Shown here: piece by piece, positions 3,901 to 60,765 of the stretch | How the letters are laid out: the number at the start of each line of letters is the position of its first letter | Position numbering within the stretch: position 1 is the stretch's first letter | From: Antedon mediterranea | Taxonomy: Eukaryota; Echinodermata; Crinoidea; Comatulida; Antedonidae | Length of the DNA: 64,000 bases | Direction: 5' to 3' | Assembly (NCBI RefSeq): GCF_964355755.1 | Contig: NC_092675.1 | Coordinates: forward strand, 811,001 to 875,000 | Made by a program: the position numbers and the translations under genes | The notes under the pieces: model-generated | The model's database searches: none | What the model saw: the letters and a program-made list of their open reading frames with translations, nothing else | What the model was told of the DNA's origin: nothing

Positions 3901-6900
3901 ACTGATGAAGGGCTAGTGTTGCCCGAAAGCTCTGCTAATTTTTCTGGCTGTTTTACATTATCGTTTTGATTTGGCCTTGGCTTATTTTATTTTGTATCCC
4001 CATTGAGATCCAGCCACTGATAACCACATTGTCATTTTTTCAGTAATTTTTGAATTTAATTTTTTTTAAACATGCATCCTTACCATTGACAAACACAACA
4101 AACTCACAGGTCACAATATTGTCAGCAAAATCTGCTGCAGTAACTGTAACAGTCTGGTATGAGCCTAACTTCACCACTGTCCCATTGACAGGTTCATAAG
4201 TGACGTATCGCACTGCGTCATTGTCTGATACAAGTATCGATGGCCAGAACATTGGAGTGGTGATAATAGGAATTTGATTTTCATCACTTACGGGCGATTC
4301 AATAACAATCAAGTCATGACATTCAAGTAATGGTGGCTCCTTGTCTATAAAAAAATGATTATTCAAATCAAATCACAGTTATTACAGTCTTACAATATAA
4401 ATAATCAATAATACAAAAGTATTTTATTAATGTCACTAACATTTAAAACACATATACTTTAAAGATGTATTGTCCCTCAAAAACATCACTTTGAATAGGC
4501 CATTTTGCAGTTTCACTTCCATAAGAAAAACAACGGGGGAAAAAAATTATTTCACCTATAAAAAGACAAAATAAACAGTTAAATTACCCAAAAACTCATT
4601 GTCTTCCAGACAATTTGAAAATTTTTTGCTTTAAATTACATTTTTCTCAGGTAAATAAATTTTTTCCAGACCCAATTTTTTTGTGAGAGTGAATAACTAT
4701 TATGTGACATTAAAATAACATATTAAAAAAAAAAAAAAAATATTTGTTTAGGGGGACAATATATCTTTAAGTGTGCCAAGAAGGGTCAAAAGAGGTTGGA
4801 AGACCACTGTCACCACAAGGCGTGCTACACCAACACAGCTTAATATAAATATTCATTAATAAAACAGGAATAGCTTTAAAAGGGATCTATTAATTTTTCA
4901 ACATATAATTGCTAAAATATTAAAACACTGAATATAAAGAGATTAATTTATTCAATGAACATTATATATATTTCATTGAAGGTAAACAAAAAATGAAAAA
5001 AATTCTGTAAATGTTTTTGTATTCTTTTCTGTTACTTGACTGTCATAAAAGGAGTAATGAAAATATACTATTTAGTAATTAATTTGTAAATTGCTTTATA
5101 TTTGTGGACTGTTTGAAATAATATATTATATTACATATTTTCACAGCAAAATATACACTATATTGATATGGCAACTGTACTAGACTACAAAAACACTTAT
5201 AGAAGATGCATTAAAAGATAATTACAAGCTATGATAAATTGATAGATCAATTTAGACAAATTGCTTTAGAAGTACTTTAATTATATCATCATTGTTACTT
5301 TATTTAAAGACTATCTCAAAAATTAAATGCTTTAAAAGTTTCATTAATTCAAGAGGATAATTTACTTTTCACAAAACATATTATTGCAAAGATTTTGATT
5401 AGTAATAGGCTAAAACGTTATTACGTCATTGAGGACTATAAAACACTTTAACATTCAACAACATTTAGTTGAGTTATTGAGTTCATATTTGAAGAAGAAG
5501 AAGAAGAATACTATAAAGTATGACAGCTACAGTAAATCTCCTCTACAGTATTATTGGGTCTCTAGGCTTATCCACTAACGGTTTTGCAATTTTCATTCTG
5601 CTACGCTTGAAAAACCGGTTTAACTCTCCAAACATTTTAATTCTGAATCAATGCATTATTGATTGTATGGCATCATTATTTTCGATTTGTCAGTTCGTGG
5701 ATGTAAGTCTAGGAGATTCGTTGTGGAAGTCTAAAATTAAGGCTTGGCTCTACTGTTGTTTGTGGTTCAACCATTACATCTTTTGGTCGTGCATTTTTGC
5801 CTCAACAGCTAATCTTGCAGTCCTCACAATGGATCGCTACTGTTCGGTGATATACCCGTTGAAATATAGCGCAAAAAAGAATAATAAATGGATCAAGGTA
5901 GCTTTGATGTTATTTCCGTGGATCTGTGGCCCGTTAGCGGTAAGTTACTGGATCATGGTGCACAGAGTTGGTGACAGAGAGTGCATAGTAGAGTGGTCAA
6001 ATATTAACGCTCAGAGAGCTTCAGGAGTATTTACTTTTCTGTACATGGAAATTGCCCCAGTTACTTTGATGGCATTTGTATACTACAAAATTTTTCAGTC
6101 ACTAAAAAGTCGAGTCGGAGAAAGTAGTGCTATTGGGAACGCAAACAGTGCAGCCAGGAGACTCAATGTCATCAAGACAATGGCACTTGTAAGCATCATA
6201 TATGCAATTTGCTGGACACCAAATCAAATAGTATTCTTTTACTATCTGTTGGGTGGAGACTTGGATCTTGATGGAATTATGTATTACGGTACAATAGCTC
6301 TTTCTTTGTTGAACAGTGTTGTGAATCCTATCATCTACACTTTCAAGTATAAAGATTTCCAAGAAGGTTTAAGAAAGACTTTGTCATGCCTTTTCAATCG
6401 TAGTTAAGGAACTTTCAACAATTGAACAAAATTCAACAATAAGGACCGTTCGATTTGCATTTCCTCGACTGATAACCTAGGCGATTTGCGCACGAAATGT
6501 CCACTTAAATTTAAACATTCAAATTATGTGTGGATGAGTACCACCTCTAATACAATTTAATTAAATCCATAGTAAATTTATGTGAATGAGAACACAACAA
6601 TAAAGTATTAAAATACAAAATTATGTGTCCTTATTTTTAAAATAATGTTTATAACTATAATCGGCCACTGTTTTCTATGACAACTGAGTAATCTTTTCAT
6701 CTGCCATTATAGACAGATGACTTCTGTTCGGACTCTAATAATGGAGATTCTAAGTGCTGGAGAATGGAGCCGTGTAAATAGTTCATCTGAATTTCTTCTT
6801 TAAAGATGTATTGTCACCCAAAAAATGACTTTGAATAGGTTATTTTGTAGTTTTAATAAAGTTAAGTTAGAAAAAAATGGGAAAAAACAATGTTTTCACT

Positions 6901-9900
6901 TAAAAAAATTTAAATTACAGTTTTTCAGATAAATTTCTTTCGATTGATTTTTATAAAAATAGATAACTATTATGCAACATTAAAATGGCATATTCAACCA
7001 AATATTTAGATTTTTTTTTTAAGGTGTCAATATATCTTTAATGGTTATCTTAGAATATTTTATAGACCATTTTTTGTGTAAGCGCTCAGAAACATTGTAT
7101 TAGGTGTTATTATAAGATTACCTTTATTATTATTATTAACCATTGAATTATAATTTTTTAGATTAGATTTTTGCTGCCAATGATACAAATTGCAATTTAC
7201 CAAAATGACGTGGATTAAGGCAGAAGACACAATTAAGCAATCTACAGAAGTTCCTGCCAATTTTTTACCTTGAGAAGTAATTCTCGGTTGCAACATCACA
7301 ACCTCCAGATCACTGAAATTCCTGACGCCAAGCTTCTCCACAGTAGTTATAAATACAATTATCATCCTATTGGTGCTGTACCTGCTTCTATACTGGAGAT
7401 GAATTTAACCCCTTTGTCAGCACAAGCTCGGTGGTCTAGAGGTATGAACGCCTGGCTAGTGATCTGGAGGTTGTGGGTTCCAGTCCCACCCATTAATTTC
7501 ATCCAAATTGTTCAACATAATCATAGAGCATATCTGATTTTTCTTGATCAAACAGAATCTATGGGGTTTTTGGGGACTCAAAAAAAAAAGAAGGAAAACA
7601 GAAGGAAATGAAAGAGAGGCAAGCAAACCCTATAAATTGGCATTTCAAATGTAAGCATGCAAAATTCTGTCTGACAAAGCACCATTCTCATTTTTATTAT
7701 ATTATATTATTTTGCATCACAATATCGTATAGTGGATAGACGGTTACTTCTTACACTTTGCATTGTGTTCATCTACCTCAAAATTAAACATAACTTATAT
7801 ATAGATAGTACTGATATACATTTTTACAATAAACAACAGTAGCATAATATGATAAAAGTATACAAATAATGTTTATGAGGTGAACAATTAATTGTTATAT
7901 TTAACGAGGTAGAGTCACATTGTTTTATAACACACCTAGTTTATTAAAGTAAACTTTTATTTAATCAATCTGCTGCTAAGACTTGCATTTCGCCTTTCTC
8001 ATTATTAGAACTATGAGATACTTTTTTATATTGAAACGAAATCCTCATTGAGCCTGCAAAATAGTATGCAATGTAAATGTAAACTTTCTCAGTTTTCAGT
8101 TCAAATGTGTGTTATGACCCACAGTAGCCATGACAGTGCATTGCCAATAAGAAGACAAATTCCGAATCTTTTCAAATAGTGTTTTTTTATCATGTATGTG
8201 TATGTTTATGTATGTTGAAGGATGAAACTGTCAGTCAGGTCAGTCACTAATTTTGGTTTGTCAATTTTTAAAATAACATCTGAAGGATGTGTTTCATTGA
8301 AAGGTATTGATTTAATATATTTATTTCAACCACATCCAACAGTGAAAAATTGCCAATTACAGGATGCCTTAAAACTCTTAAGATATAAATATAGATATTA
8401 AATAAATAAAATGTTAACTTTTAGTTAAACCAGTTGACAAGTACTTAGTTGAAACGTAGCAAGTAAGTACTTGTCAACTGGTTTAACTAAAAGTTAACAT
8501 TTATTTATTTAATATCCATTGAAACCAGATGAAATTTTTTGAGAAAGTATAAATATAGAATTAAAAGAACATAAAAATACAAAACATGAAACATAAAAAA
8601 TGGCAAACTTAAATCGATTTAAGAACTTTAGACTTAAATTGGACAAAGTGTAAAAAAAATATCGATAGTCTTATCTTAATATCGATAGTCTTATCTAAAT
8701 ATCGAAAGTCTTATCTAAATATCGATAGTCTTATCTAAATATCGATAGTCTTATCTAAATATCGATAGTCTTATCTTAATATCGATAGTCTTATCTTAAT
8801 ATTGAAAGTTTTATCTAAATATCGATAGTCTTATCTAAATATCGATAGTCTTATCTTAATATCGATAGTCTTATCTGTATCAACAATAAGAACACTTTCA
8901 AACATAAATTTTAAAAACATCTACTTAGTAAACTTGAAGAACAACAAAGTCATGCTTAGATCCTGAGCAAAATATTTTCAATCACTTTAGTTTGTTTATT
9001 TCTATTTCATACTTCTTCGTTTTCTTTCTTAGTTTTGTGCTTTTTTAAATTCTTTTTTAAAAATATTATTTCATCATCTATTCATCTTCATATGTTTCTC
9101 TTTTGATGTTTTATCATTAGACTGTTACTTTATATATTGACCTCTGTTTTAAAAAATATGTAGGCCCTACAGGTATGATGTATGGATTTGAAAAAACAAG
9201 AGTAATATAATAATCTTGCATATACAAGCAATATTAATTAATTACTTTCATAGAAAAAACAAAATAAAAAAATATATATCTATATAGTATACCAGGCCAC
9301 TGTTACAAGAAATGACACTAACAAAGTTGAAACGTATGTTGGACTGAAAATACTTTTAAGTGTAGATACAAGTCTGAGTTTTTATTTTTCATTTATATCT
9401 ATATAAAGCGATTTTAATAGGTTTAAAATATGGATACCTCTAAAACCTTTTACAATAACAAAAGATTTACTGTCTGACTGAATGTCATATTTAATTGAAT
9501 GTATATTTCGAGGGTGGTTTTTAAAAGTGTATTGAAAAGAAACAATTATACAGCCTAATGTTGTTCAACATTATACATTACTTGATGATTGATTTCTGTA
9601 AACGCTTTTACAGTAATCTTAAACTGAATTAAATGAATATAGCATTAAGTACCTTACAGGATATTAAAGCACAGACTTAATGATAATACATAATTGAGTA
9701 AAGCCTAAACTAAAACAGCCAATACACAATGAAAGTTTAGCTTTCTTTCATATATCTGCCACAGCTTAGTAAAGACATAATCAGCAGAGTTAGAAGATAG
9801 ATTTCATAGTGGAAATACAACTGAAGTAAATATATGGCATCAACTAGTACTTTACTATACAGCATATTTGGTTCTTTAGGATTGTTCACTAATGGTTTCG

Positions 9901-12900
9901 CAATATTCATTCTCCTACGTTTGCAGAATCGATTTAACTCACCAAATCTTTTAATTTTTAATCAATGTGTGGTTGATTTCTTGACATCTTTCTTCTCAAT
10001 AATTCAGTTTGTTGATAAATTTAATAATCCGTTGCCAGAGTCACCAGTGTTGGCGGCCATCGTTTGTAGTAAGTACTTCTTCTGGTCTTGCATTTTTACT
10101 TCAACTGGCAATCTGGTTGTTCTAACAATTGATCGCTATTGTGCTGTAATACATTCTTTAAAATACAATCATGTCAAAAACTACAAGTGGGTCAAATGTG
10201 CTGCTCTAGTCACACCCTGGATTTGTGGCTTTACTTTTATTCTTTACTGGGTTGCAATCCATAGAGTCGTAGATGGAGTTTGCTTCCAGAAGTGGCCAAG
10301 CGTCCAGTTTCAGAAATTGTTTGGATTTTTGAATTTCTTCTACATAGAGCTGGCTCCACTTGCTATTATGCTATTTGTATATGTTAGAATCTTTAATTCT
10401 CTCAAAACACGTGTCGGAGAAAATAGTACAACCAGAAATGAACACGGAAACACTGCCAGAAGAATGAATATTATTAAAACCATGTTGATCGTCGGCGTCA
10501 TATACATGATCTGTTGGACACCAAATCAGATAGCGTTTTTGAATTTTACTTTCGGTGGTCAATTTGATTTCAATGGTATTTTCTATTACGTAGTAGTGGT
10601 ACTTTCTCTATTTAACAGCTGTGTAAATCCTATCATTTATACTTTCAAATATAAAGATTTTCAAGAAGGACTGAAGAAGACTTTAGTATGCCTCTTGCCA
10701 AGAGATACAACTTAAGACCCAACTGCAGTTCTACAAGTTATAAACGTTTCAGTCAGACATTCATTTGTAAAATCTAAAAACAATTAGTCTTATGTTTACG
10801 ATGTGATAGGACAGAATTTGAAAGGTGTTGGACATTAAAAACTTTAATTTATTAATGTTTAATAGCAAGTCTGGTATTCTGGTCCATTTTAGCCCCTGTT
10901 CAACCTTCCCTTCCTTAAGAAATTCAAGAATATACCTTTCAATAAAAGATCAACTACAGTAACTAATGCTAATAAATTGCATAGCATCTTGATTTAAAAT
11001 CTATTGGCAGGTACTGTAGGTTAGTTTTAAACTTGTTTTCAATAGATCACACAATATATATTTTCATAATAGCAACTGCAGAAAGTCAATGCTTATAACC
11101 ATCTTCACTGTAACCTATATCAGGGCTCCTAAGTCACATAGATTCAGCATATTGCATTATACTAGTAGGCCTATACAACGACTTGTATATACATTTGATA
11201 ATATTTGTATAAAAATTGTATTCAATGTTATTCTCATAAGATACATCATTATGTAATTAAAAAAATGAGAGTTATTTTAAAAGAGTCAAAATGTATTTCA
11301 AGAGTAGACCAACAAAAAAAAAGTAATGAATAAATAAACAAGGCCAACAGCCATTAAGTCGCGTGCTACAATGCATAGTGATACCGGACCGACAGACAGA
11401 CCGACAGAAAGACCGACAGACAGACAGACCGACCGACCGACCGACATAGTGAACTATACTGACCAAAATTACTGAACATGTTTAAAAATGTTGAAATGTT
11501 TGAAAACATTTATATTTTTTTAATTTACACGTGCGTAGCCTGTCACTTTTGACGTGCTCGTATAACGTAATTTCGAGTTGAAAAGTAAGTCAAGAAAACA
11601 GAAATCGGGCAAAAAGAGTGCGCAATAACATTTAACGCGCAGTGCGCGCGCAAAAATATGCGCACTCATGGCAATTTTGTAAACGCTTAAAATTGCCTGA
11701 AACGTACTCTTATTTCATTGAAATTTTGAAAATTTTAAGCGCGCGTACGCATGCGTTACATGTGCTACGCACGTAATTGTATTGCCATATGATGATTTAT
11801 GCCCTGAAATTTATGAGTACCAAATTTTATTTAATTGTGATTCATGGTTGTGAAGATATGATTACAAACGTGATTTCGTTAAATCGTGCGTAGACCGCGT
11901 AATTTTTTATTGCGCACCGTGAAAACATAACCACATTGATTCCTGGCCATAAGGAATATACTGTGAAAAATTGACCTAGCTAGATTAAACTGATATCAAG
12001 ATAAGGTCAGAAAGCGATAAAACGCATAGTGATACCGGACCGACAGACCGACAGACAGACAGACAGACCGACAGACCGACAGACCGACCAACCGACCGAC
12101 ATAGTGAACTATAGAGTCGCTTCCACGTGACTAAAAATAAAGAAAAAGTGTTAAATGTTTTATTTGAAGTTTTTTCACTCATTGGTGTAATTATTGGTCC
12201 ACAAAAAAAAAACAACAGATAATTACTAATGGATGATATATCATATCTACCAAATTTAAGGCAATGTAGAATAGTTTGAAAATATAATTTGAATTTGGAT
12301 AACGTCATAGTATAAAGTTGGCAAGTTTGACAATATATATACAAAAACTTGTATACTGTAGGTAAATGTATATAGGTATACCAATTGTTCAATTCTTCTA
12401 CCGCCATCTTCATTATTCGATAAATTAATTGCAAATATCATAGGCCTACCTGAGTAGATTCTTTTTATTTAATTTGAAAATTGTGGGTCAAATTCATAAA
12501 AGTACCAGGGTCTGGCATGAGTGGTGGAATGGTTTTATAAAGATTTTTTTAATAGCGAAAGTTTTATGGTGTTTGTCAGTATGTAATGATGCATGAAAAC
12601 AGTATCCATGAAGACGGTTATGTAGGAGAATAGTTACAAATTGAATTATATATAGATACTGATTTTCTTAAGAACATACTTTGAAAATACTTTAAAAGCT
12701 TTTCAAGGGAATCTTTAATAACCTAATATTGTTCACATATTTTAAATAAAAATGTGTCCTTGAATAAGTAACAAGATCAGCAAATTCTAAAGTCTTAATC
12801 ATTTGAAAGCCATTAACAAAGTATCTATAATTGTATGCAATTTCCTATATCTATTGACAAATGAATATATATCGATTACAGTATGATTGAGAAGACCAGG

Positions 12901-15900
12901 TCCATGAGAAGACACTTCATGAGACTATAGGGTGCTCTGTGATTTGTTGACAGATTACTATTTAATTATTAATTATTTAGGCATTATATTGCCAAGGATA
13001 AACTTATACAAAGAAAATTTATTTGGAAATTGAAACCAATTGAATTAAAAAAACAATCTTTGTCAGTGGAGTAGTTTTTTGTCGTGAAAAAAAAATCCTT
13101 ACCATGAGATCGGTAACCAAGCATCTAAACTGCTTGAAAGCTAAAACTTCACTTCAGATAAGTTATGTAGATTGAATTGAATTACCGAGATCATAGTAAT
13201 TTTCTACTTTGAAAACATTTTAAAAGCTTTTCAAGGAAATTTTTAATAACCATATTGATTACATTTTATAACGGAAATTGTATCCTTGAGTCAATTTAGA
13301 CACATAATTGGCATGATGCTTACAAACAAATTGTTTAAGTTTGAGTATAATATATATATAGGCCTACTGAATGTAGAATATAATGAAAATGGATGTAAGA
13401 TGAAAGTTTGATTCATGGTTTAATACACTTACGAATTAAATATATGAAATACGTTGAACCAATAAGCAGCAGAGTTCTGGAGTGGATGTACCAGCATACT
13501 CTATATGAGGCAAAAAAAAAAAGAAGTTGCCTGCGACACGTAAAACAGTAGCTTCTTGACTAAGAGAATATTTTTTTTCTGGAAGCCTAAGCCACACTTG
13601 AATAAAGTGACATCAGAATTAAACAAGAGACAATAGAAAAACATGGCAGCAATAAATGCAGTACTTTACAGCGTGTTTGGATGTCTGGGATTGTTCACAA
13701 ATGGTTTCGCAATATTCATTCTTCTACGTTTACAGAATCGATTCAACTCGCCAATTATTTTGATTTTAAATCACTGTGTGGTAGACTTCTTGACATCCTT
13801 CTTCTCAATAATTCAGTTTGTTGATATATTTACCACTCCGCTACCAGAATCACCAGCATTGGCGATCATTGTTTGTAGTAAGTACTTCTTCTGGTCCTGC
13901 ATTTTTACATCATCCGGCAATCTTCTTGTTATAACAATTGATCGCTACTGTTCTGTAATATATCCTTTAAAATACAATAAAGTTAAAAACTACAAGACGG
14001 TCAAAGGTGCTGCTCTAGTCATACCCTGGATTTGTGGCTTTACTTTTATGCTTTACTGGCTTTTAATCCATAAAATCGAGGATGGAGTTTGCATTCAGAA
14101 GTGGCCAAGTGTCCAGTACCAGAAATTGTTTGGTTTTCTAAATTTCCTCTACATCGAACTGATTCCACTTATTATTATGCTATTCGTGTACATAAGAATC
14201 TTCATCTCTCTTAAGACACGTGTCGGAGAGACCAGTACCGCAAGAAATGAAGCAAACACTGCCAGAAGAATGAACATTATAAAAACAATGATGATTGCTA
14301 GCATTACATACATGGTTTGTTGGACTCCAGGCCAAACATCATATTTATATTTTACTTTTGGAGGTTACCTAGATTTTGATGGAGTTCCATACTACATTGT
14401 GGTGGTATTTACGCTATTAAACAGCTGTGTAAATCCTATAATATACACCTTCAAGTATAAGGATTTTCAAAAGGGTTTGAAAGAAACTTTTTCATTCCTA
14501 CAACAAAGAACAGAGAACTAAAAAGGTTAGGAAGGTAGTAACACAACATTTTTTTGTAAATTTGTAATTAAATGTGATGTGGCCATATTATATGGACATG
14601 ATGATGTCGTATCACTACCACAGTTAAGCATATCACTACCATATTTAGGCACATCACACTTTTTTGTCAAACTAGTTTGATAGTATACATACAGAGCTTA
14701 TTAGCCGTGTTCTGATCATGCGCACAATTACTATTCCCTCGACAGAGGTGCGTATCGATTAATTTAATTAATTTATTTTTAAAAATTTAAAACATATTTA
14801 TACAGGATAAAAACCTATAAGGTATTGTATATGTAGTACCTGTTTTACATATGGTCCTGTTTATAAAAAATTAAAGGTTAACAACAATCTTTAAAACTTG
14901 CTAAAACAATAAAATAACAATACTAACATATATGTACATTTACGATAAAAGGATTAAAAATGCTAAATATTCAGATACCATGTCCTGTCACAGTTTTACA
15001 ATTCTTATTATGAATTGATTGCAGGCATCAAGTTGAGCAAGTTAAAAATGTGATACCAACAAATGAATGAATAAATAAATAAATAAATAAACAATATTAT
15101 TTACTCCAAAACAGATGATACATGTATATGATTCATAAAATGTAATATAAAAAGAAGCAGTAGTGCCAGTATGATGGTGTCCCTTCCTTTAATGAGTGTA
15201 TGCGAAAATCTATCTATGGCTTCATGCAACGTATGTTGAATAGTTGTAATATTCTTGTTGCTTGTGTTTGCACACATGTTAAACATTAAACTAAAACATG
15301 TATAGTAGAAGTATCCTATATATTTAAGCTTAGAGTTTGTGAATTTTCTTTTTTCTTTTTCTGTTCGTACGTTTGTTGATATGGATGAGATTTTTCCGAA
15401 ATAAAAATAAATTGAATTGAATTGAAAAAAATAAATAGACATTATGACATAGAAATTATCAATTTTATCTATAATTGTTAGATAGTGTGTTGAGTTCTTT
15501 TATAACTAAACATGTGTAGATTTTTTGTTTTTGATCTTTTTTTATTCCAAATTTTGGCACTGTTATAGCTGATACTGTTTTGTATTATTCTTTTATTTAA
15601 TAGTGTAATGAAGTTTAATTTATATTAAATTCACAATGTTTTCTCTTTCTTATGCCATACTTATGAATAAAGTAATAGAAGCTGTTTATTATGAAACTGA
15701 AGGGTTAATTTTACAGTTCCGTGATGTCCTAGGCTGGGTTGAAAAATGTGTAAATAGTACTAGTCCGGCTTGATCATTGCTATCGTTATTTATTTTCAAC
15801 AATTTAAAAACTCAGTGACGTTACATGACATCGACTGGAATGTGGCTGTGCGCCAATATACATGATATATGCGCGTGACAGCGCCGTGACAACGAAAAGC

Positions 15901-18900: not shown

Positions 18901-21900
18901 ACGTTGACAAATACAATCTGTTCCATTCCACCAGCCAAAGCCCCATCCCCAGCCCCATCCCCAGCCATAACCCCATCCAATGCAACCAATACCGGCTCCA
19001 TCTCCTCCACCTCCACCACCCCCTCCTCCTCCACCACCTCCATCACCTTGTTCTCCAGTACAGGCACAAATTTCACCTTGACCTCCTCCACCACCTCCTC
19101 CTCCGCCTCCACCTTCACCCCAGCCTGTGCCTGGAGGACATTCTACAAGAAAATCAATAATAGTGATCAATATATTATACATTTATTTAAAAATCTCTTG
19201 CTCTCTTTCTAGAGCTTTGTTATTGTATACCTTCACAATAGCCAGGGCTCCCACTCCATATCCCATTTTCAAGGCAGTACCTCACCAGAGGTCCATGGTA
19301 CCCATATGTTTCATCACATTTGGTATATGCTTCACTTCCAAACGTTGTAAGGTTATTCTGGTATGTTACACTGCCATACTCAGGTGCCATCATTGCTCCA
19401 CAATCAACAACTGTAAGAGGAAAAAAAAATTTGTATCGGAAAACTTCCCTTAATTAACATAATAATGAATAAAACGTGTATAAAAAGTAGGTATACTTAA
19501 TTTCCCTTTATTTATTTTATCCCTTTTGACCCCAAGATTTATTAAACTGTTACAGAAATACATGGAAATGATTGGCTGTATCCTACTTACTTGTGCATTT
19601 TGGTTCAAAATCTGACCAATCATAATGATTGTTACCAGTGTCCTCACAAATACGATTACTTGGTCCTGTAAGCGTATAACCTTCATGGCAGTTGTAGCTA
19701 ACTTGTGAAAGACAAGAGTAAGACTCCAAAATAGGCTCATAGAAGCCATCATCCACTTGTGATGGTGGAAAACATTCAATACCTATAAACAAGATTGGCA
19801 TTATGGTACATATTTTAAAATGCAAAAATTCTGTGTACTACATTACTTAAACACGCATATTTATCTTGTAATTGTATGTTTCTGTCCAAGAATTTTCCAT
19901 TTTATTTCATATCCACAAAAATTAAAATCAATCGTGTGCAATATAATAAACTAAATTCATATTAAAGGCATGAAAATGGAAATATAAGTTCGACCTTTGG
20001 TTACTTTTTTTGTGTTACCCTGAATTCATTCTTTGTAATTTATATGTTGTGTTATTTTGTGAATTCGAATAAAGAAATAAAATAACAATTAAAAAAAAAA
20101 AATATATTTTAGTAAAAATATGTGATTCTCCAACAACTCATACAGAACCTGTACATAAATAATACCTATACAGCTTGGAAATTCAGAATCAAAGCCATCA
20201 CTGCCACATGACAAGACAGCATCATCACCAACAAGCTCATAGCATGGATCACAACGGAACTCTATAGTATCTCCCATAGGGATGGCGATGTCAGTAACAA
20301 CCTCAACTCCATCGAGTACAATAGTGCCTATATAGTTGTATGTTTTATCAGGAAGAATAACTACGCCATTCTCAATCTTTACTGGAACTGGGCAAAGGTT
20401 AGCTACATTCAAAATAAAACGTTATTTTTTAACCGTTAGCAATTCTATATAAATAGTATGATGCTTATCTATTTCATGCAACAATACTAAAAAAAGAAGT
20501 AAAGTATGATTAAAGTTGGTTATGATAATGATCCATGGTTAAAGTCACTTACAAACACACGTTTTGCCAATAACATAGCTGTCTTCATTTGAGTAGCCTG
20601 ACTCGCCTGGTGGTAGATAGTAACCATTGGTTCCATTCATAACATAGAGATCATATCCTGGTTCACATGAACAGTTATAGCTTGCTGGATAATTATGACA
20701 GAGTTGATTACAGTCATTAAGGTTTTCATCATCGCATTCATTGATATCTAGAAGAAAAAAAGGAAAATCCGATTTCTCAATAAAGAACTTTTACGAACAA
20801 CTTCAATCAAGACAAGACTTTTTGTAGGCTTTGGAAGTTATTAAAAAAAAGCACACGGTGCCATCGTCACCACTGTTGGGTTCACTCTAGATGCTTAGAA
20901 ATTGAATCGTCAGACCATCACTTACCAGTTAATCATTAATCCAACCAATTAAGTTATTACATGTGAAATGTGTCAGAAGACACAAGAAACATTTTGGCCA
21001 GTTAGGTTCGCTTTACACACTTTGCATCATCATTCAGATGAAATGTGTATCATTGATTTGTTCATTTGAGAAAAAAGATAGTCTATTGGTTCGTTTAAAG
21101 ACTCAGGGAAAGTCTAGGACTAAAGAATATTTCATGAGTAAAGTTTATCTTTATTGGGATTAATACAGATGTATAGGTTTTTAGTACTGTTATTCAAAAA
21201 TAGATACACTACCATCGCAGGTTGTTATGTCTTGTCCGTTATTAAATTGATAACCAGGTGGGCAAATACAAGAGTACGATCCTTGAATGTTGCGACATGT
21301 AGCAAGACCTTTACATCTGTTATCACCCTCACATTCATTTATATCTAATAATAAAACAATGTTAGGATATTTAAAATAAGAAATGTTGAATGAGCTGCAA
21401 TGAACACTTCTTCATAATACAATATAATATACTAGTAACTTTAATTTCTAGAAAATTTTAAATATTTTTTAATCAAATTGTTTGAACTCTTTTCCTACCT
21501 ATGCAACTTGGGAGTGGATCATCCCATGTTGTGCCTTCACATTTGACAGTTCTATCGGCGCCCTCGGGTAATTGGTAGCCTCCGTAGCACAACGCAGTGG
21601 TTGTTTCACCAATGGTAAATGGTGCGCTCGTGGCCAAGTAAGTGGTAAAGTCATTGTACTCAGGAACCGGGCAATTAACAGCTTAAAAGAGAATATAATG
21701 GAAATTTTTATAATACCATCCAAACAAACTATTTTCACATAATTGTATGTAGCACAGCTATTAAGCCTACGGGGCTACTATCTATATATTCTGTTTTGGA
21801 AGGGTGTACAAATTGATAGTGATTGGTAGTTATGTATGACTTCTCACAAGAATGAATCATAAAAAAAACAAAACAACATAGACATATCATTGTGTCACTT

Positions 21901-35620: not shown

Positions 35621-36409
35621 TACTGTACATGACTAAACAGCTGATAATAGTCTATTTATACGTGTATTACGTAATTCATCATAAAAATCCCATTAACCTT
35701 GTTGGATTTAAAATTAAAATTGTAATGATAATAGTATAATCATGCAAGTACGAAGAAATAAATACTGGCAAATAAATTTTAATTTAAAAATCATGATAAG
35801 TTTTTTTGTTTCGTTTTCTTTCTGTTTTTATACTTGTACTATTATTGTTGCTCTTTTGGCGCTCCATAGAAACAAAAACATTGAGCATGGGGGAGCTCGA
35901 GGAGTTACATTGTCATTACAGTATACAAAGAAACACATCTGTAAAATCATCAATTTAAAGGATTTATTTATTTGTTATTATGTGTTTCTCCTTCTGAAAG
36001 TACTTATAAGTCCTAATTTTAAAGTGTGGTGTTCAGGATAAAGTTAGTCAACAAATTTGGAGTCAAAATACAAGAAAGGCAGGTGCGTAAGAAAAACATC
36101 CTCTGAAGCAACACAATGGAGTAAATATATACCAACAAACAACCCGTCAAGTTTGTTTGTTGTAAAGAAAAAATATACATTTACTCAACGGGCGAAAATA
36201 ATGTGAGTTTATCTATGTTTTGCGGTAGTATTAAATTATATTTATGGTAATAAATGAAACCTACTGTGTTTAAAATTATGTATGGATAAACAAGTATTGT
36301 TTTTAAGCTGTAGTATATCTTAGTATTTGTAATCTTAGGTGTTGGGTCTTAGCTTTCGTGATCTTAGGTCTTAGGGGGTCTGAGCTTTCGTGGTCTGAGC
36401 TTTCGTGAC
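35621..36409. other. No gene seen; short degenerate repeats before LINE
   Basis: AT-rich sequence with no supportable gene. At 36335-36410 the phrases gatcttaggt, tcttaggggg and tgagctttcgtg(g/a) are repeated several times, forming an imperfect minisatellite directly at the 5' truncation point of the LINE. Confidence 0.55.
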
Positions 36410-37798
36410 ACCCCAAAATTGCCCCATTATGGAATAAGAGGCGTGGTTCTTGATTGGTACCGAAGCTACCTTAGAGAAAGACAACAATTTGTACAAATTG
36501 GGAAGTGTCAGTCTGTAACCATAATAATAAAACAAGGCGTTCCACAAGGGTCAATCCTTGGACCCCTGCTGTTTTTGATTTTCATAAATGACATGTTTTC
36601 TGTAAGTAATGTCGTTGATTTAATAATGTTTGCAGATGATACGAATATGTTTTTACAACACAATGATATCGTCACTGCCTTTACAATAATGACAAATGAA
36701 CTAAATAAAATTGAGAAATGGTGTAAAACTAATAGATTAACTATTAATACAACCAAGACTACGTATATGTTATTTAGTGGAAAGAATACCAACATTGACA
36801 CATCCCAATTTGTACTTTCAATAAATAGAGTTTCAATAGATAGAGTAGGCCTACCATATACTAAATTTCTCGGTGTCGTCATTGATGAGAAACTGAACTT
36901 TAGACACCATACAAATGCAGTTTCTTGTAAAGCATCCTCAATAATTGGTGCCATGTGTCATATAAAAAAATTAGTATCTACTGAAGTGTTACTTACCATA
37001 TACAAGACACTTATATTACCAGTGTTGACATATGGTATTATTGTATGGGGTGCGGGGAACAAAGACAATTTGGATCGCCTTCTATTGCTTCAGAAAAAAG
37101 CTCTTAGGATCATTTGTAAGGTAGACTTTCATCATCCCTCTTCTCAGCTCTTTGTGAAAACGGGCACATTTAATATATTTGATTTGTATAAAAACAGTGT
37201 TTTAAATTTTATGTTTAAATACCAAAAAGGACAACTTCCAAAATGTTTTAATTCTTTATTCAGTTTATTTGATAATTATCATACATATAACACTCGAAAT
37301 AAAGACAATTATTGTATAAAATTAAAATCAACTAATATGGGTCAGCAAAGTATAGCATATAGAGGACCTAAGCTATGGAATCAACTTATAAGAAATATAA
37401 GAGAGAGTGAAAATATATCAATATTTAAAAAACTATTACTAAATAAATGCATTAATAGTTATAAAGAAACAATATATCTATGCGAAAACAACATTTGTAA
37501 AATATGTCTAACTTTAACTTAATTACTTACATTTTCGTATATATTCTGAGACTGATGTATATATATATGTTATATTATAGTACGTTGTATTTTCCTTCAT
37601 TTATTTACTACATGAAAACATTTTTTGTAATATATTTGTAAATTTATATTTTAAGTTAGGGTGCCACAGATTAAAAGCTTTGCTTGCTTGTGGTTATCCT
37701 GTTTTTCACACTTTATTGTACTTAATCCTTTATTTATATTTTTAAGAATGTTGTGTGAAAAATAAAAGAATCAATCAATCAATCAAAAAAAAAAAAAA
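36410..37798 (+). mobile_element. 5'-truncated LINE with reverse transcriptase, jockey/CR1-like
   Basis: The open frame 36413-37522 starts within the reverse transcriptase domain (LPHYGIRGVVLDWYRSYL), continues through GVPQGSILGPLLFLIFINDM and the catalytic FADDTNMF, and ends with the C-terminal NTRNKDN and YRGPKLWNQL blocks. There is no true start codon, and the endonuclease half is missing. A 3' UTR, an aataaa signal and a (tcaa)n plus A-run tail finish the copy at about 37798. The frame is intact over some 370 codons, so the insertion is probably young. It is related to the remnant at 2860-3362. Confidence 0.92.
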
Positions 37799-37802
37799 AC
37801 CA

Positions 37803-38090
37803 AAATGATCAGTCAGCTCAGTCGCCTGAGCGTCGTGTTCACAACACGTATGTCGTGGGTTCGATTCCCACGCTGGTCGGTGGGTTCGATTCCCACGCTG
37901 GTCGGTGGAATAGAGTTAAAGGCAGGCGGCCACTGTGTTTGGGGTTCACAGAATTATACGTCCCCCTTTCCACCACACATCATGAGGCGACAACATCAAT
38001 GCATCTGGTGATGTGCTGGAAACGACCCCCAAAAGGCTGTGGCAGGGCCTTAGTGCTGAGGCAGGGAGAGCACATTTAACATCTTTTTTT
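37803..38090 (+). mobile_element. tRNA-derived SINE with duplicated box B
   Basis: tcagctcagtcgcctgagcg (box A-like) is followed by gtgggttcgattcccacgct, a near perfect T-arm. The gggttcgattcccacgctgg unit is duplicated in tandem (37856-37902). A SINE body and T-rich end follow. It lies directly behind the LINE poly-A tail, so it inserted into or beside that tail. Confidence 0.75.
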
Positions 38091-39440: not shown

Positions 39441-39628
39441 GAAAATAAAACTAAATTTATTTAACGAAATTAGATAAACATAAAAGATTAATATAGCCCT
39501 ATCTTAAATAATAAAATAATTTACAGAATTATAATTGTGAAAAAAAATACTAGTTCATATATTGAATTAAATACAACGTAAAAAATGTTTAGAAACAAAA
39601 ATACATTTGAAATATTCAATAAATGTGT

Positions 39629-42115
39629 TTATGCTTTTTGTGATGTAATAACAACTTTCTCTTCTTTCTGTTCACCAGTCTTCCGTTGAGTATCTGTGCC
39701 ATTCAACTGATCTAGTTCAGGTATCTCGTCCTCTCCAGAGTGATTTATGTCCTCATGTCTGTCTTCGTATCGCCTGTTTTGCTGGTAATAACCTCGACGT
39801 TGATCGTCCTGCTGACGACTGAAACCATTACCTTGATGATCCCGTCGATAATGTCCTCTTCCTCTTCCACCGAATCGTTTGTTATAGTATTCATAATATC
39901 CAACTACATCTTGTGATTGTTCGTTATAACGACGATCTCGTTCGGTGTTTCTTCCTCCCCTGTGGCTGCTACCACCATAACGTCGAGTGGCCCAACTATC
40001 TCTTGGCTGTGCTGCTCCGTTCAAGTGTTGCTGCTGATGAATCCGCTCGCTTAGATCACTGATGTTGGCTTTCTGTACGTTACAGTCGTCGAAGAGGAGC
40101 TGGTGACTATTGGTGAGATGATCGAGTCTGGAATTTAGGTAAGGTATCCACTGTCCAAATTGAGTCTCCAGCACGGTTAGACGTTCGCTCATTGTGAGTA
40201 GGTCTACACCTATTTGTTCGTTTGTAAGAATTGGAGCCCAGCATACATCTAAGTTTTAAACATAAATATATATATGCGCGGTCATAAAACAAATATATTA
40301 ATTTACATTCAATAAAAAACGAAAATTCAAAACAGTTTATAAATATTTAAAAAATAGTTAGGCCTAATATAGTTGTATAATTGTAACATATCACGTGGAA
40401 CATTAATTGTTAACCGGAATATGAAGAACTAACCCCCATCGGCTGTCGAGTACTGCACGTATTGGGTTGTTGGGTCACTGCTTACAGGGATAGCGGCTGT
40501 TTGTTGTTGAAAATCGTGTGTACTTCTTTCGATAGCGTTATTTGTTACTGAATTTTCCGATTCGTCGGGAACTTTCATATGCTCAGACTCAAAACGGTTG
40601 GTCTTCTCTGGTTCTAGTGCAGCAGTAGGTATAGCCTTAAGACGTGTATCATCCTCTACCAAATCATTTGCTATCTGGTGACAAACTGTCGTCTTCTGAA
40701 GAGTTTTAGTTTGATCCATGGATTCCTCAACTTTTGTTTGTGAATAAGTAGCTGATGTTTGGGTGCTTGTTTGAACATCTTGGTTGACTTTATTATTGGT
40801 TACTTCCGCAACCTCTACTAAAGGGCAACTCTGGGAAGACTTTTCAGTACTATCGATCTCATTCACCACCAATGCCTGGTTATTCACGGCAGACCAGTCA
40901 AAAACAGGTTGGTCATTGACTCTGGATAAGTCCGGCTAAAATAAAAACAAAATCGTTTAAAAAAACAAATTATTGTTAACGAGTAGCGACTTTAATCTGA
41001 AAAATAGGTTGGGGTGTACTAGAACCGCTAATAGAGGTTAAAACCCAGTTTGTATATTGCAAAGACCAGTCAAGCTACATAAACGACTTCCAAAGCTAAC
41101 AAACCTTTTCATCAATCTTTACATCATTTTCGTCATCGGTTTGATGATATCCTTGGCTACTGTCACCTAACGACCTCTGTGCGCCGACGACGGTCACTGC
41201 ATCTGCACCAACGATCACGTATTCATCTTCCGTGTTTGATGCAGAGATGTGTGGCTCAGGACCTGCAGTGGTTGAATTTTCGTCGTATTGCATTCCATCC
41301 AGTTTCTCCTCTTCGTCACAATGCTTACTCAAGACATTCCCATCTTGGTCGTCCTTTCCGTCGTCATCGTCGGTGTCAATTTCTTCATCAGGATCTGTTG
41401 CATCATTGTTGTTGTTGCAATTCTGCCGGAGAAGAAATAATTAGACTTGTAGGCGTGGTATAAAGGAGAAAGATGGTAGGCAATTACATAAAAAAATAGA
41501 TAAAGAATATAGAATATTAAGTTAGCTAGTTAGGCACGTCCCCAATGCAATCAAGGATAGCCTAGGCCTAGCCTATAGTAGTATGGTAGGCTAATGATAA
41601 TTTACCGAGTTTAACTGAAGTTGCAGATAAGGAGTGTTGAGTGAGTTGTCCTTCTTCCTGGGTCCAATTTCTGTAAAATCATCGTCTAATCCGAAAGAAA
41701 ATGATTTACTTGTCCCAATGATCCTTCCATTCTTGCGGGAGTCTGCGTAAACGAACTTAAATTGACCCACTTCTTGAGATGGCATCATGGTATCTTCTGG
41801 AACGGAAGAGAGATCAAATTTGACTTGAAAAAGGACAGACCATCTGTAACGAACACATTCCTTCGGTATAGGTTGAAGACATAAGCAATCTTGAAGAATT
41901 TTGCCAGCCGCGGTGGCTGGTAAAATCCCGACAACATTCCGATCCAATAGGCGAGAACGTTGGACACGACATTGGACTATGACTGAGTTTCGGATGCTAT
42001 ACGTGCGTCTCACATGTTCAAATTCTACTTCCTGTCTTCTTTTTCGTTCAAGGCAGGTTGCCTTTTTATCATGTTGACTTACAACCATGATTATGTAACT
42101 CCCTTTGTTGCTCAA
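39629..42115 (-). CDS. SKICH-domain protein with LIR-like motifs and RGG-rich C-terminus, four exons
   Basis: Exons 41606-42115, 41105-41422, 40434-40935 and 39629-40248 join in frame to 649 residues. Residues about 29-142 match the SKICH fold of NDP52, TAX1BP1 and CALCOCO1: VEFEHVRRTY, a DRNVVGI segment and the diagnostic FKFVYADSRKNGRIIGTSKS. Exon 2 is very acidic and contains EDEYVIV (238-241). Exon 3 contains DWSAV (W290) and ALVV (297-300), which resemble LC3-interacting motifs. Exon 4 begins with a helical SERLTVLETQFGQW segment, then an Arg/Gly/Tyr-rich tract (RRYGGSSHRGG, RFGGRGRGHYRRD). The zinc fingers and long coiled coil of CALCOCO proteins are absent. Known SKICH adaptors act in selective autophagy; RGG tracts bind RNA. 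A role in RNP turnover is inference. The start could be M1 or M10. Confidence 0.82.
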
Positions 42116-42119
42116 TCAA

Positions 42120-42690
42120 TGCAAGTGAAAAGAAGTGCCGGGCCCTATCATGTACAATCAAGCAGCCACTACCAAAGTAATGTTTTTGTTTGATCCGTCC
42201 AAATGTTTTATTCCAAAGTGAACACGTGTAGAACATAAAAAACAACGCTCTACGGGTACGCGCATGGATTACGCGCTGTTGCCCGATGAACATGCATCGT
42301 CAAGGAGATAAAGGATTGTACTTTAAACTAAAAGCAATTGTACTGTAAAACATAATAATATAAACATTTGTGTAGCGTTGTCTATAACTGTTGCACGTTA
42401 CTACCTATTAATTTTAAGTATCCGTTATTTGTTGTAGAATCATCAGATTTACCTTTCCATTTTTACAATTAATGTTTCATCAGACATACCGACTGAACTT
42501 TTTTTTCATTGTTTATTGGCTCTCTGTGCGCATGCCCAGTTCACAAATTCCCATTTAGACTCTCTTTCCATACGTTCTTTGGGGTGTGCGCATGCCCAGT
42601 CCGAGAAAAAGAAAACTAGTTATAAGCTACCGCGCGTTATAGTTACCTTGAATATTATAATTGCCTAAAGGCGCGGCGCAAAAAAAAAGA
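42120..42690. promoter_or_regulatory. CpG-containing upstream region of the SKICH gene with two NRF1-like sites
   Basis: TGCGCATGCCCAG occurs at 42527-42539 and again exactly 60 bp later at 42587-42599; this is close to the NRF1 consensus. Several CpGs (acgcgcatgg, ggcgcggcgc) lie around them. The second site is part of a block (42559-42681) repeated in diverged form at 60991-61131, so it may belong to a mobile element, not the gene promoter. Confidence 0.5.
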
Positions 42691-43891
42691 AGAAAATCTT
42701 CGACATCAGTTATGTAACTCTAAAGGTTCACTAAATAAGTTAGAAAATTTACAATACCAAATGGCTAGAATTATTTTGAAGGCACCAAGAAACGTCGCGA
42801 AAGCGGCATTGATTGGTGACCTAGGATGGGAGACACTCTACACCATCCAAAATAAATTTAGGATGTCCTATTTTAACAGAATTAAAAATATGGACGACCA
42901 AAGGTGGCAAAAACTACTATGTAGATCTATAATGGATGTAGAAGATAAGGTGAAATGGAAGTGGATTAACCATATCAAAGATTTATTATGTAAATTTGAT
43001 TTAGGAAATAAGTTTAATTTAAATCCGGAAAGTCAATGGTTCAAGAGTTTTACACATGCCAACTCTCTAGAAAATATCAAGGAATGGTTAGAAGGTGCAA
43101 AAACAAAGTCAACCCTCTCCGAATATTTGAAATATAAACATGAACCTAAAGCAGAGACATACATGTTTGATATGGTGAATTTTGATTCCATTAGTTTAAA
43201 GTTTAAAGCGAGGTCTAACTCTCTTGATTTAGAAGGTAGAAAAAATACATGGTCAGAAAATGAGACTGGTTTTTGCAAGCTATGCAACAATCAGTTAATT
43301 GAAACTACAGACCATTTTCTACTTGAATGTTCAAACCTTAAAAATGTAAGAGAAACACATTTTAACTTACTAAAAATGGATTTATTATATTGTGGTTATG
43401 ATACATTCTGGGAAAATTTTAGAAGTGGTACAATCGAATACCAACATCATATTTTACTTGATGACCTTTATTTAGAATTTCCATTTGAGAGAATCGGTGA
43501 AATTGTAGACTATCACTGTAAACAATACTTAACTGCTGCATGGAGACATAGAAAGACTACACTTAATATATAATATATAAATATTTACCGCCCACCATAT
43601 TATCTACTAACATTATTTTACCATTTATCTAATTCAATAATATATTATATATATATTTTTTTTTTTTTTTTTTTTTTTTTTCCTTCAAAATTATATAATG
43701 TAACCTAAATCTAAATAAAATAAATAAATAATACAGTACTAAAAATAAGACTAAATAGTATAATAAAAATTGTATCACATTTAATTAAATTACAAATAAC
43801 TATTAATATTAAATATAATAAGAACAAATAATCATATAAAAGTTGCATTTATTTTAATAATAACAGTATAATAAATCAATTAGCAGTTATA

Positions 43892-47540: not shown

Positions 47541-48192
47541 ACATGGTAATGTTAGTATACAACATGGTAATGTTAGTATACAACATGGTAATGTTAGTAT
47601 ACAACATGGTAATGTTAGTATACAACATGGTAATGTTAGCATACAACATGGTAATGTTAGTATACAACATGGTAATGTTAGTATACAACATGGTAATGTT
47701 AGTATACAACATGGTAATGTTAGTATACAACATGGTAATGTTAGTATACAACATGGTAATGTTAGTATACAACATGGTAATGTTAGTATACAACATGGTA
47801 ATGTTAGTATACAACATGGTAATGTTAGCATACAACATGGTAATGTTAGTATACAACATGGTAATGTTAGTATACAACATGGTAATGTTAGTATACAACA
47901 TGGTAATGTTAGTATACAACATGGTAATGTTAGTATACAACATGGTAATGTTAGCATACAACATGGTAATGTTAGCATACAACATGGTAATGTTAGCATA
48001 CAACATGGTAATGTTAGTATACAACATGGTAATGTTAGTATACAACATGGTAATGTTAGCATACAACATGGTAATGTTAGCATACAACATGGTAATGTTA
48101 GTATACAACATGGTAATGTTAGTATACAACATGGTAATGTTAGTATACAACATGGTAATGTTAGTATACAACATGGTAATGTTAGTATACAA
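47541..48192. repeat. 21-bp minisatellite, about 31 copies
   Basis: Units of acatggtaatgttagtatac plus one base repeat without indels; the only common variant is gttagta versus gttagca. Unit length is divisible by three and contains no stop codon in several frames, so long artificial open frames appear on both strands (MVMLVYN or NITMLYT repeats). These are not genes. Each unit holds two small palindromes, AACAT-n4-ATGTT and GTATAC. Confidence 0.97.
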
Positions 48193-48199
48193 CTTGCTT

Positions 48200-50907: not shown

Positions 50908-51599
50908 TGTAATAGTATAGGTAGGCAAGATTGTAATGTTGTAATAGTATAGGTAGGCAAGATTGTAATGTTGTAATAGTATAGGTAGGCAAGATTGTAA
51001 TGTTGTAATAGTATAGGTAGGCAAGATTGTAATGTTGTAATAGTATAGGTAGGCAAGATTGTAATGTTGTAATAGTATAGGTAGGCAAGATTGTAATGTT
51101 GTAATAGTATAGGTAGGCAAGATTGTAATGTTGTAATAGTATACAGTAGGTAGGCAAGATTGTAATGTTGTAATAGTATAGGTAGGCAAGATTGTAATGT
51201 TGTAATAGTATACAGTAGGTAGGCAAGATTGTAATGTTGTAATAGTATAGGTAGGCAAGATTGTAATGTTGTAATAGTATAGGTAGGCAAGATTGTAATG
51301 TTGTAATAGTATAGGTAGGCAAGATTGTAATGTTGTAATAGTATACAGTAGGTAGGCAAGATTGTAATGTTGTAATAGTATAGGTAGGCAAGATTGTAAT
51401 GTTGTAATAGTATACAGTAGGTAGGCAAGATTGTAATGTTGTAATAGTATAGGTAGGCAAGATTGTAATGTTGTAATAGTATAGGTAGGCAAGATTGTAA
51501 TGTTGTAATAGTATAGGTAGGCAAGATTGTAATGTTGTAATAGTATAGGTAGGCAAGATTGTAATGTTGTAATAGTATACTGTAGGTAGGCAAGATTGT
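50908..51599. repeat. 32/37-bp minisatellite, about 20 copies
   Basis: The basic unit is tagtataggtaggcaagatt followed by gtaatgttgtaa (32 bp). At least five units carry a 5-bp insertion, giving tagtatacagtaggtaggca (51138, 51206, 51342, 51410) or a ctgta form at 51577. The long forms are interspersed among short ones. The open frames across it are artefacts of the repeat. Confidence 0.97.
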
Positions 51600-60308: not shown

Positions 60309-60765
60309 AATGTAATCCTAAACTACTGTACATATTCCGGGGTAGGGGGGGGGGGCCTTACTCTCTAGATATCGTTGCATGTAATCCTAAACTACTGTAC
60401 ATATTCCGGGGTAGGGGGGCCTTACTCTCTAGATATCGTTGCATGTAATCCCAAACTACTGTACATATTCCGGGGTAGGGGGGCCTTACTCTCTAGATAT
60501 CGTTGCATGTAATCCCAAACTACTGTACATATTCCGGGGTAGGGGGGCCTTACTCTCTAGATATCGTTGCATGTAATCCCAAACTACTGTACATATTCCG
60601 GGGTAGGGGGGGCCTTACTCTCTAGATATCGTTGCATGTAATCCCAAACTACTGTACATATTCCGGGGTAGAGGGGCCTTACTCTCTAGATATCGTTGCA
60701 TGTAATCCTAAACTACTGTACATATTCCGGGGTAGGGGGCCCTTACTCCCTAGATATCGTTGAGA
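60309..60765. repeat. About 65-bp GC-richer minisatellite, 7 copies
   Basis: Each unit contains catgtaatcctaaactactg, tacatattccggggtagggg, a G run of variable length, ccttactctctagatatcgt and tg. Differences are mainly G-run length and a C/T change in aatcc(t/c)aaac. The unit is far more GC-rich than the surrounding DNA. Confidence 0.95.

Follow-up and report, generated by a model that had tools for sequence, protein, structure and literature searches.

A predicted four-exon gene of the crinoid Antedon mediterranea with a putative SKICH-like N-terminus and an arginine/glycine/tyrosine-rich tail

A locus within 64 kb of Antedon mediterranea DNA (the window, whose numbering is used throughout) raises the question of whether its open reading frames (ORFs) form a single gene whose product has a SKICH domain at one end and an RNA-binding type of tail at the other, and whether such a protein could connect RNA granules with autophagy. 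An initial annotation, made from the sequence, had proposed four in-frame exons encoding a SKICH-like N-terminus, acidic linkers and an Arg/Gly/Tyr-rich C-terminus. It had designated this combination an unrecognised architecture.

The four exons were confirmed. They lie on the minus strand, are separated by GT-AG introns with compatible phases, and join into an uninterrupted frame of 640 amino acids. The features are given below, with splice sites marked by a slash.

41606..42088, minus strand: exon 1, aa 1–161, with the ATG and the entire putative SKICH-like domain (about aa 21–133)
41423..41605, minus strand: intron 1, 183 bp, TCG/GTAAAT ... CCGGCAG/AAT, phase 0
41105..41422, minus strand: exon 2, aa 162–267, an acidic Asn/Asp-rich linker with the LIR-like DEYVIV at aa 227–232
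40936..41104, minus strand: intron 2, 169 bp, AAG/GTTTGT ... TATTTTAG/CCG, phase 0
40434..40935, minus strand: exon 3, aa 268–435, a low-complexity linker that includes an LVV core as well as WSAV (aa 281)
40249..40433, minus strand: intron 3, 185 bp, GGG/GTTAGT ... AAACTTAG/ATG, phase 1
39629..40248, minus strand: exon 4, aa 435–640 and the stop
39456..39461, minus strand: polyadenylation signal AATAAA, 168 bp 3' of the stop codon

Exon 4 comprises a predicted short coiled coil (about aa 445–480), an R/G/Y-rich segment (aa 511–595) and an acidic tail (aa 596–640). Translation would start at the first ATG of the reading frame, which lies at 42088 in a good Kozak context (ATAATCATGG); position 42115, where the initial annotation had ended the gene, is the limit of that ORF. 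Each of the three introns contains stops in all three frames. The ORFs of the region's minus strand (208, 174, 168 and 114 codons) exceed those of shuffled sequence: when the region was dinucleotide-shuffled 1000 times, the longest ORF averaged 93 codons and reached 168 codons in seven shuffles, and not one shuffle had four ORFs of at least 114 codons on the minus strand, as the real strand does. Codon usage, trained on a small set of 1254 codons taken largely from G protein-coupled receptors (GPCRs), was best in the claimed frame for exons 2, 3 and 4, and did not favour the frame of exon 1. Exons 1 and 4 each matched only themselves in the 354-Mb genome, with no paralog of either, which indicates a single-copy gene, and no relatives were found on the viral contigs searched.

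It is very unlikely that two genes are present, the first ending early after exon 2 or exon 3 and the second consisting of exon 4 with its own start at Met454 (MSERLTVLETQF...). Such an arrangement would make use of the in-frame ATG in exon 4 and of a minus-strand AATAAA at 40794, inside exon 3, and since introns 1 and 2 are both of phase 0, the frames alone are no proof that exons 1–3 are joined. However, exon 3 has no stop before its GT donor, the phase of this donor (phase 1) is that of the exon 4 acceptor, exon 4 is open from the acceptor to Met454, and the three introns are of similar length. The stretch 39629–42088 thus looks like one ordinary four-exon animal protein-coding gene, as predicted from its sequence.

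Whether the N-terminus is a SKICH domain is less clear-cut. Exon 1 matched the Pfam SKICH family (PF17751) with an E-value of 0.0031 and 18.4 bits over profile positions 3–103 of 103, and the trimmed domain did so with an E-value of 0.0012 and 19.7 bits over positions 2–103; both scores are below the curated cut-off of 23.4 bits. SKICH was the only Pfam family matched by either query, and the full-length 640-aa protein gave no reported match to Pfam. The stretch used for the controls and for a second fold prediction was the following.

41654..42034, minus strand: SKICH-like stretch, aa 19–145

None of nine control sequences (eight shuffles of the domain and its reversal) matched SKICH in Pfam. 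In the C-terminal half of the domain, QFKFVYADSRKNGRIIGTSKSFSF aligns with YQFCYVTHKGEIRGASTPFQF. Two further comparisons separated the domain from random sequence poorly. Against a shallow homemade profile built from TAX1BP1, NDP52 and two SKICH genes of this genome, it ranked 14th of 5002 sequences, the rest being its reversal and 5000 shuffles; hhalign assigned it a probability of 2.7%, a value reached by three of 150 shuffles. A search of NCBIfam gave no match, and phmmer found no SKICH chain in the PDB; the sequence matches that it did return, such as hepatocyte growth factor (E 0.14), were discarded as noise.

Structure prediction added little. AlphaFold, run on the single sequence without relatives, produced models with a pLDDT of 39 for exon 1 and 44 for the trimmed domain, which are too poor for use. 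When the model of the trimmed domain was nevertheless compared with 350,542 PDB chains by Foldseek, the SKICH domain of NDP52 (3vvw_A) came first, but the match was not significant (E 0.78, TM-score 0.20) and is a hint only.

A rival to be weighed is the reading that the gene is real and single but that its N-terminus is a lineage-specific or other β-sandwich, in an orphan protein of unrelated role. We regard this as unlikely, though to be taken seriously: the sub-threshold Pfam score, the near-random rank against the shallow profile and the lack of a confident model all suit it, and both genuine SKICH genes in this genome have much higher scores and an intron within the domain, whereas the present domain lies within one exon. 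What it does not account for is the coverage of the whole SKICH profile (103 positions) at a Pfam-wide E-value of 0.0012, the lack of any other matching family, the clean controls and the alignment described above. On balance, we regard a divergent SKICH-like domain as somewhat more probable than not, though short of established. The sequence that had been termed diagnostic of SKICH does not deserve that term; what stands of the original assignment is a remote full-profile match.

The two genuine SKICH genes represent known families. One (G000:C2:39243000-39252900, minus strand) is a canonical TAX1BP1/CALCOCO-like gene whose SKICH domain scores 96.4 bits; it also has coiled-coil exons, and its protein ends in a C-terminal pair of zinc fingers; a genome search for Zn-C2H2_12 gave two matches at this gene and none at the window gene. 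The other (G000:C3:34216500-34226400, minus strand) is INPP5K-like, with 5-phosphatase motifs (PAWTDRILW) followed by a SKICH domain of 84.7 bits. Given the presence of both in the same genome, the window gene is probably not their ortholog and, judged from these comparisons, is probably an additional diverged SKICH member or a convergent look-alike.

The selective autophagy receptors of the CALCOCO family (TAX1BP1, NDP52/CALCOCO2 and CALCOCO1) are similar to the window protein in having an N-terminal SKICH or SKICH-like domain, disordered parts, a linker with a LIR or, in the window protein, a candidate LIR-like motif, and a coiled coil C-terminal of that linker. In the window protein, however, the SKICH match is remote and below the Pfam cut-off, the coiled coil is very short rather than extended and central, and an R/G/Y-rich tail occupies the place of the C-terminal zinc finger. 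INPP5K/SKIP-type inositol 5-phosphatases share only a SKICH(-like) domain, which they carry at the C-terminus, and no exon of the window gene matched a 5-phosphatase catalytic domain in Pfam. By combining a SKICH-like domain, an acidic linker, a short coiled coil and an R/G/Y-rich tail, and by lacking zinc fingers, the protein departs from the canonical family, and to this extent the architecture proposed initially is retained, although without a diagnostic SKICH sequence and without the RGG tract that had been ascribed to it. A literature search for SKICH together with RGG returned only an unrelated review, and in a search on SKICH in invertebrates the word SKICH was not used among the matches listed.

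Between the N-terminal domain and the coiled coil lies a low-complexity linker of 293 residues (aa 146–438), whose acidic character, as first described, was borne out by 61 Asp and Glu against 19 Lys and Arg. Although DEYVIV conforms to the extended LIR pattern, a match of this kind also turned up by chance in 18% of shuffled linkers. The LVV core in exon 3 resembles the atypical LIR of the CALCOCO family, which is found in the place corresponding to this linker. A simple hydrophobic-heptad scan placed the heptad peak of the whole protein at aa 445–474, and the short coiled coil around it probably dimerises the protein, as far as the heptad pattern can tell. Neither this coiled coil nor DEYVIV had figured in the initial annotation.

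The C-terminal segment is rich in Arg, Gly and Tyr, as had been stated: its 85 residues (aa 511–595) include 18 Arg, 13 Gly and 10 Tyr. To call it an RGG tract was an overstatement, because it contains one RGG (aa 531) and four RG in all (aa 531, 563, 565 and 586). When the RGG classes were applied (tri-RGG and di-RGG repeats with gaps of 0–4 residues, and di-RG as the weakest class), the tail matched neither the tri-RGG nor the di-RGG definition and fell into the di-RG class through RGRG. RNA contact by such a tail is not excluded, since G3BP1 is itself listed in the di-RG class. Like G3BP1 and other RNA-associated proteins with RG/RGG tails, the window protein has an Arg/Gly-rich low-complexity C-terminus with RGRG, and it differs from them in its low number of RG and RGG motifs, its SKICH-like N-terminus and the lack of a detectable RNA-binding domain: exons 2–4 gave no Pfam match at all, whether to RRM, KH, a zinc finger or any other RNA-binding family.

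The tail also brings to mind a nuclear or mRNA-processing protein, or a coactivator-type protein, whose SKICH-like domain would serve for binding other proteins and which would have no part in autophagy. mRNA-binding proteins commonly have R/G/Y-rich tails with acidic ends, and the original description of CALCOCO1 was as a coactivator. The negative Pfam result for exons 2–4 speaks against such a role, which we consider doubtful and less probable than a non-SKICH orphan.

We tentatively prefer, at a little short of even chances, a scaffold with a divergent SKICH-like domain, a disordered linker, a dimerising coiled coil and an R/G/Y tail. In such a protein, a SKICH-like β-sandwich (aa ~21–133), if the fold is as supposed, would dock a protein partner, and the acidic disordered linker of about 300 residues would join it to the coiled coil (aa ~445–480), which may make the scaffold dimeric. 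The disordered R/G/Y tail with its acidic end could then contact RNA or ribonucleoprotein (RNP) condensates through charge and aromatic contacts, so that the scaffold would bring whatever machinery is bound by the SKICH-like domain to RNA-containing assemblies. To suppose that the partner is the autophagy machinery is a speculative step, and the role of an RNP-autophagy adaptor is a guess.

In its specific form, this guess would have the SKICH-like domain recruit TBK1/ULK, the LIR bind ATG8 and the R/G/Y tail bind the granule. The SKICH domain of TAX1BP1 recruits TBK1 via NAP1, as well as RB1CC1, and requires A114 for this (PMC8523161); that NDP52/TAX1BP1 SKICH domains recruit NAP1-TBK1 and RB1CC1/FIP200 is in favour of the adaptor, as is the location of DEYVIV between domain and coiled coil, where the family has its LIR. 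NDP52 has been reported at stress granules and P-bodies (PMC9265587) and is reportedly needed for the turnover of AGO2 and DICER (PMC4006050); a SKICH–RNP link in autophagy is hence an existing idea, and these reports also count for the adaptor. In the window protein, however, the position of A114 is occupied by Thr (IIGTSKSFSF aligned with IRGASTPFQF), and the same interface is therefore less expected, though another is possible. The frequency of chance LIR matches, the missing ubiquitin-binding zinc finger and the solitary RGG also weigh against the adaptor, which we consider quite unlikely.

A further variant is a lineage-specific SKICH protein without zinc fingers, in which the R/G/Y tail would replace the ubiquitin-binding fingers and the protein would act as a direct, ubiquitin-independent granulophagy receptor that delivers RNP condensates to autophagy; we consider this improbable. 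On present evidence this is an unannotated, fast-diverging gene whose layout is suggestive. If both the SKICH assignment and the joined transcript hold, the same animal would possess, beside a canonical receptor, a SKICH protein that dispenses with zinc fingers and long coiled coils, and, if this is true, a system for asking whether a SKICH receptor can select its cargo through RNA instead of ubiquitin.

The gene is flanked by retrotransposon remnants: a reverse transcriptase ORF at 36368-37522 (plus strand; RVT_1, E 7e-15) on one side, and on the other an ORF at 42626-43573 (plus strand) that is weakly similar to zf-RVT. At 37807-37879 (plus strand) Rfam matched a tRNA with 43.6 bits, which was not called by ARAGORN; the match overlaps a 25-bp duplicated stretch (37855-37908) and is possibly a tRNA-derived SINE. 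Elsewhere in the window there are minisatellite arrays at 47541-48193 (21-bp units), 50908-51579 (32 (202) bp) and 60310-60762 (64 (193) bp), and exons with a Sushi repeat and a HYR domain, typical of extracellular genes, at 20089-20421 and 4040-4372 (both minus strand). Three tandem intronless genes for rhodopsin-family GPCRs of about 295 aa lie on the plus strand at 5517-6407, 9825-10715 and 13637-14521 (7tm_1, E 1e-29 to 1e-31).
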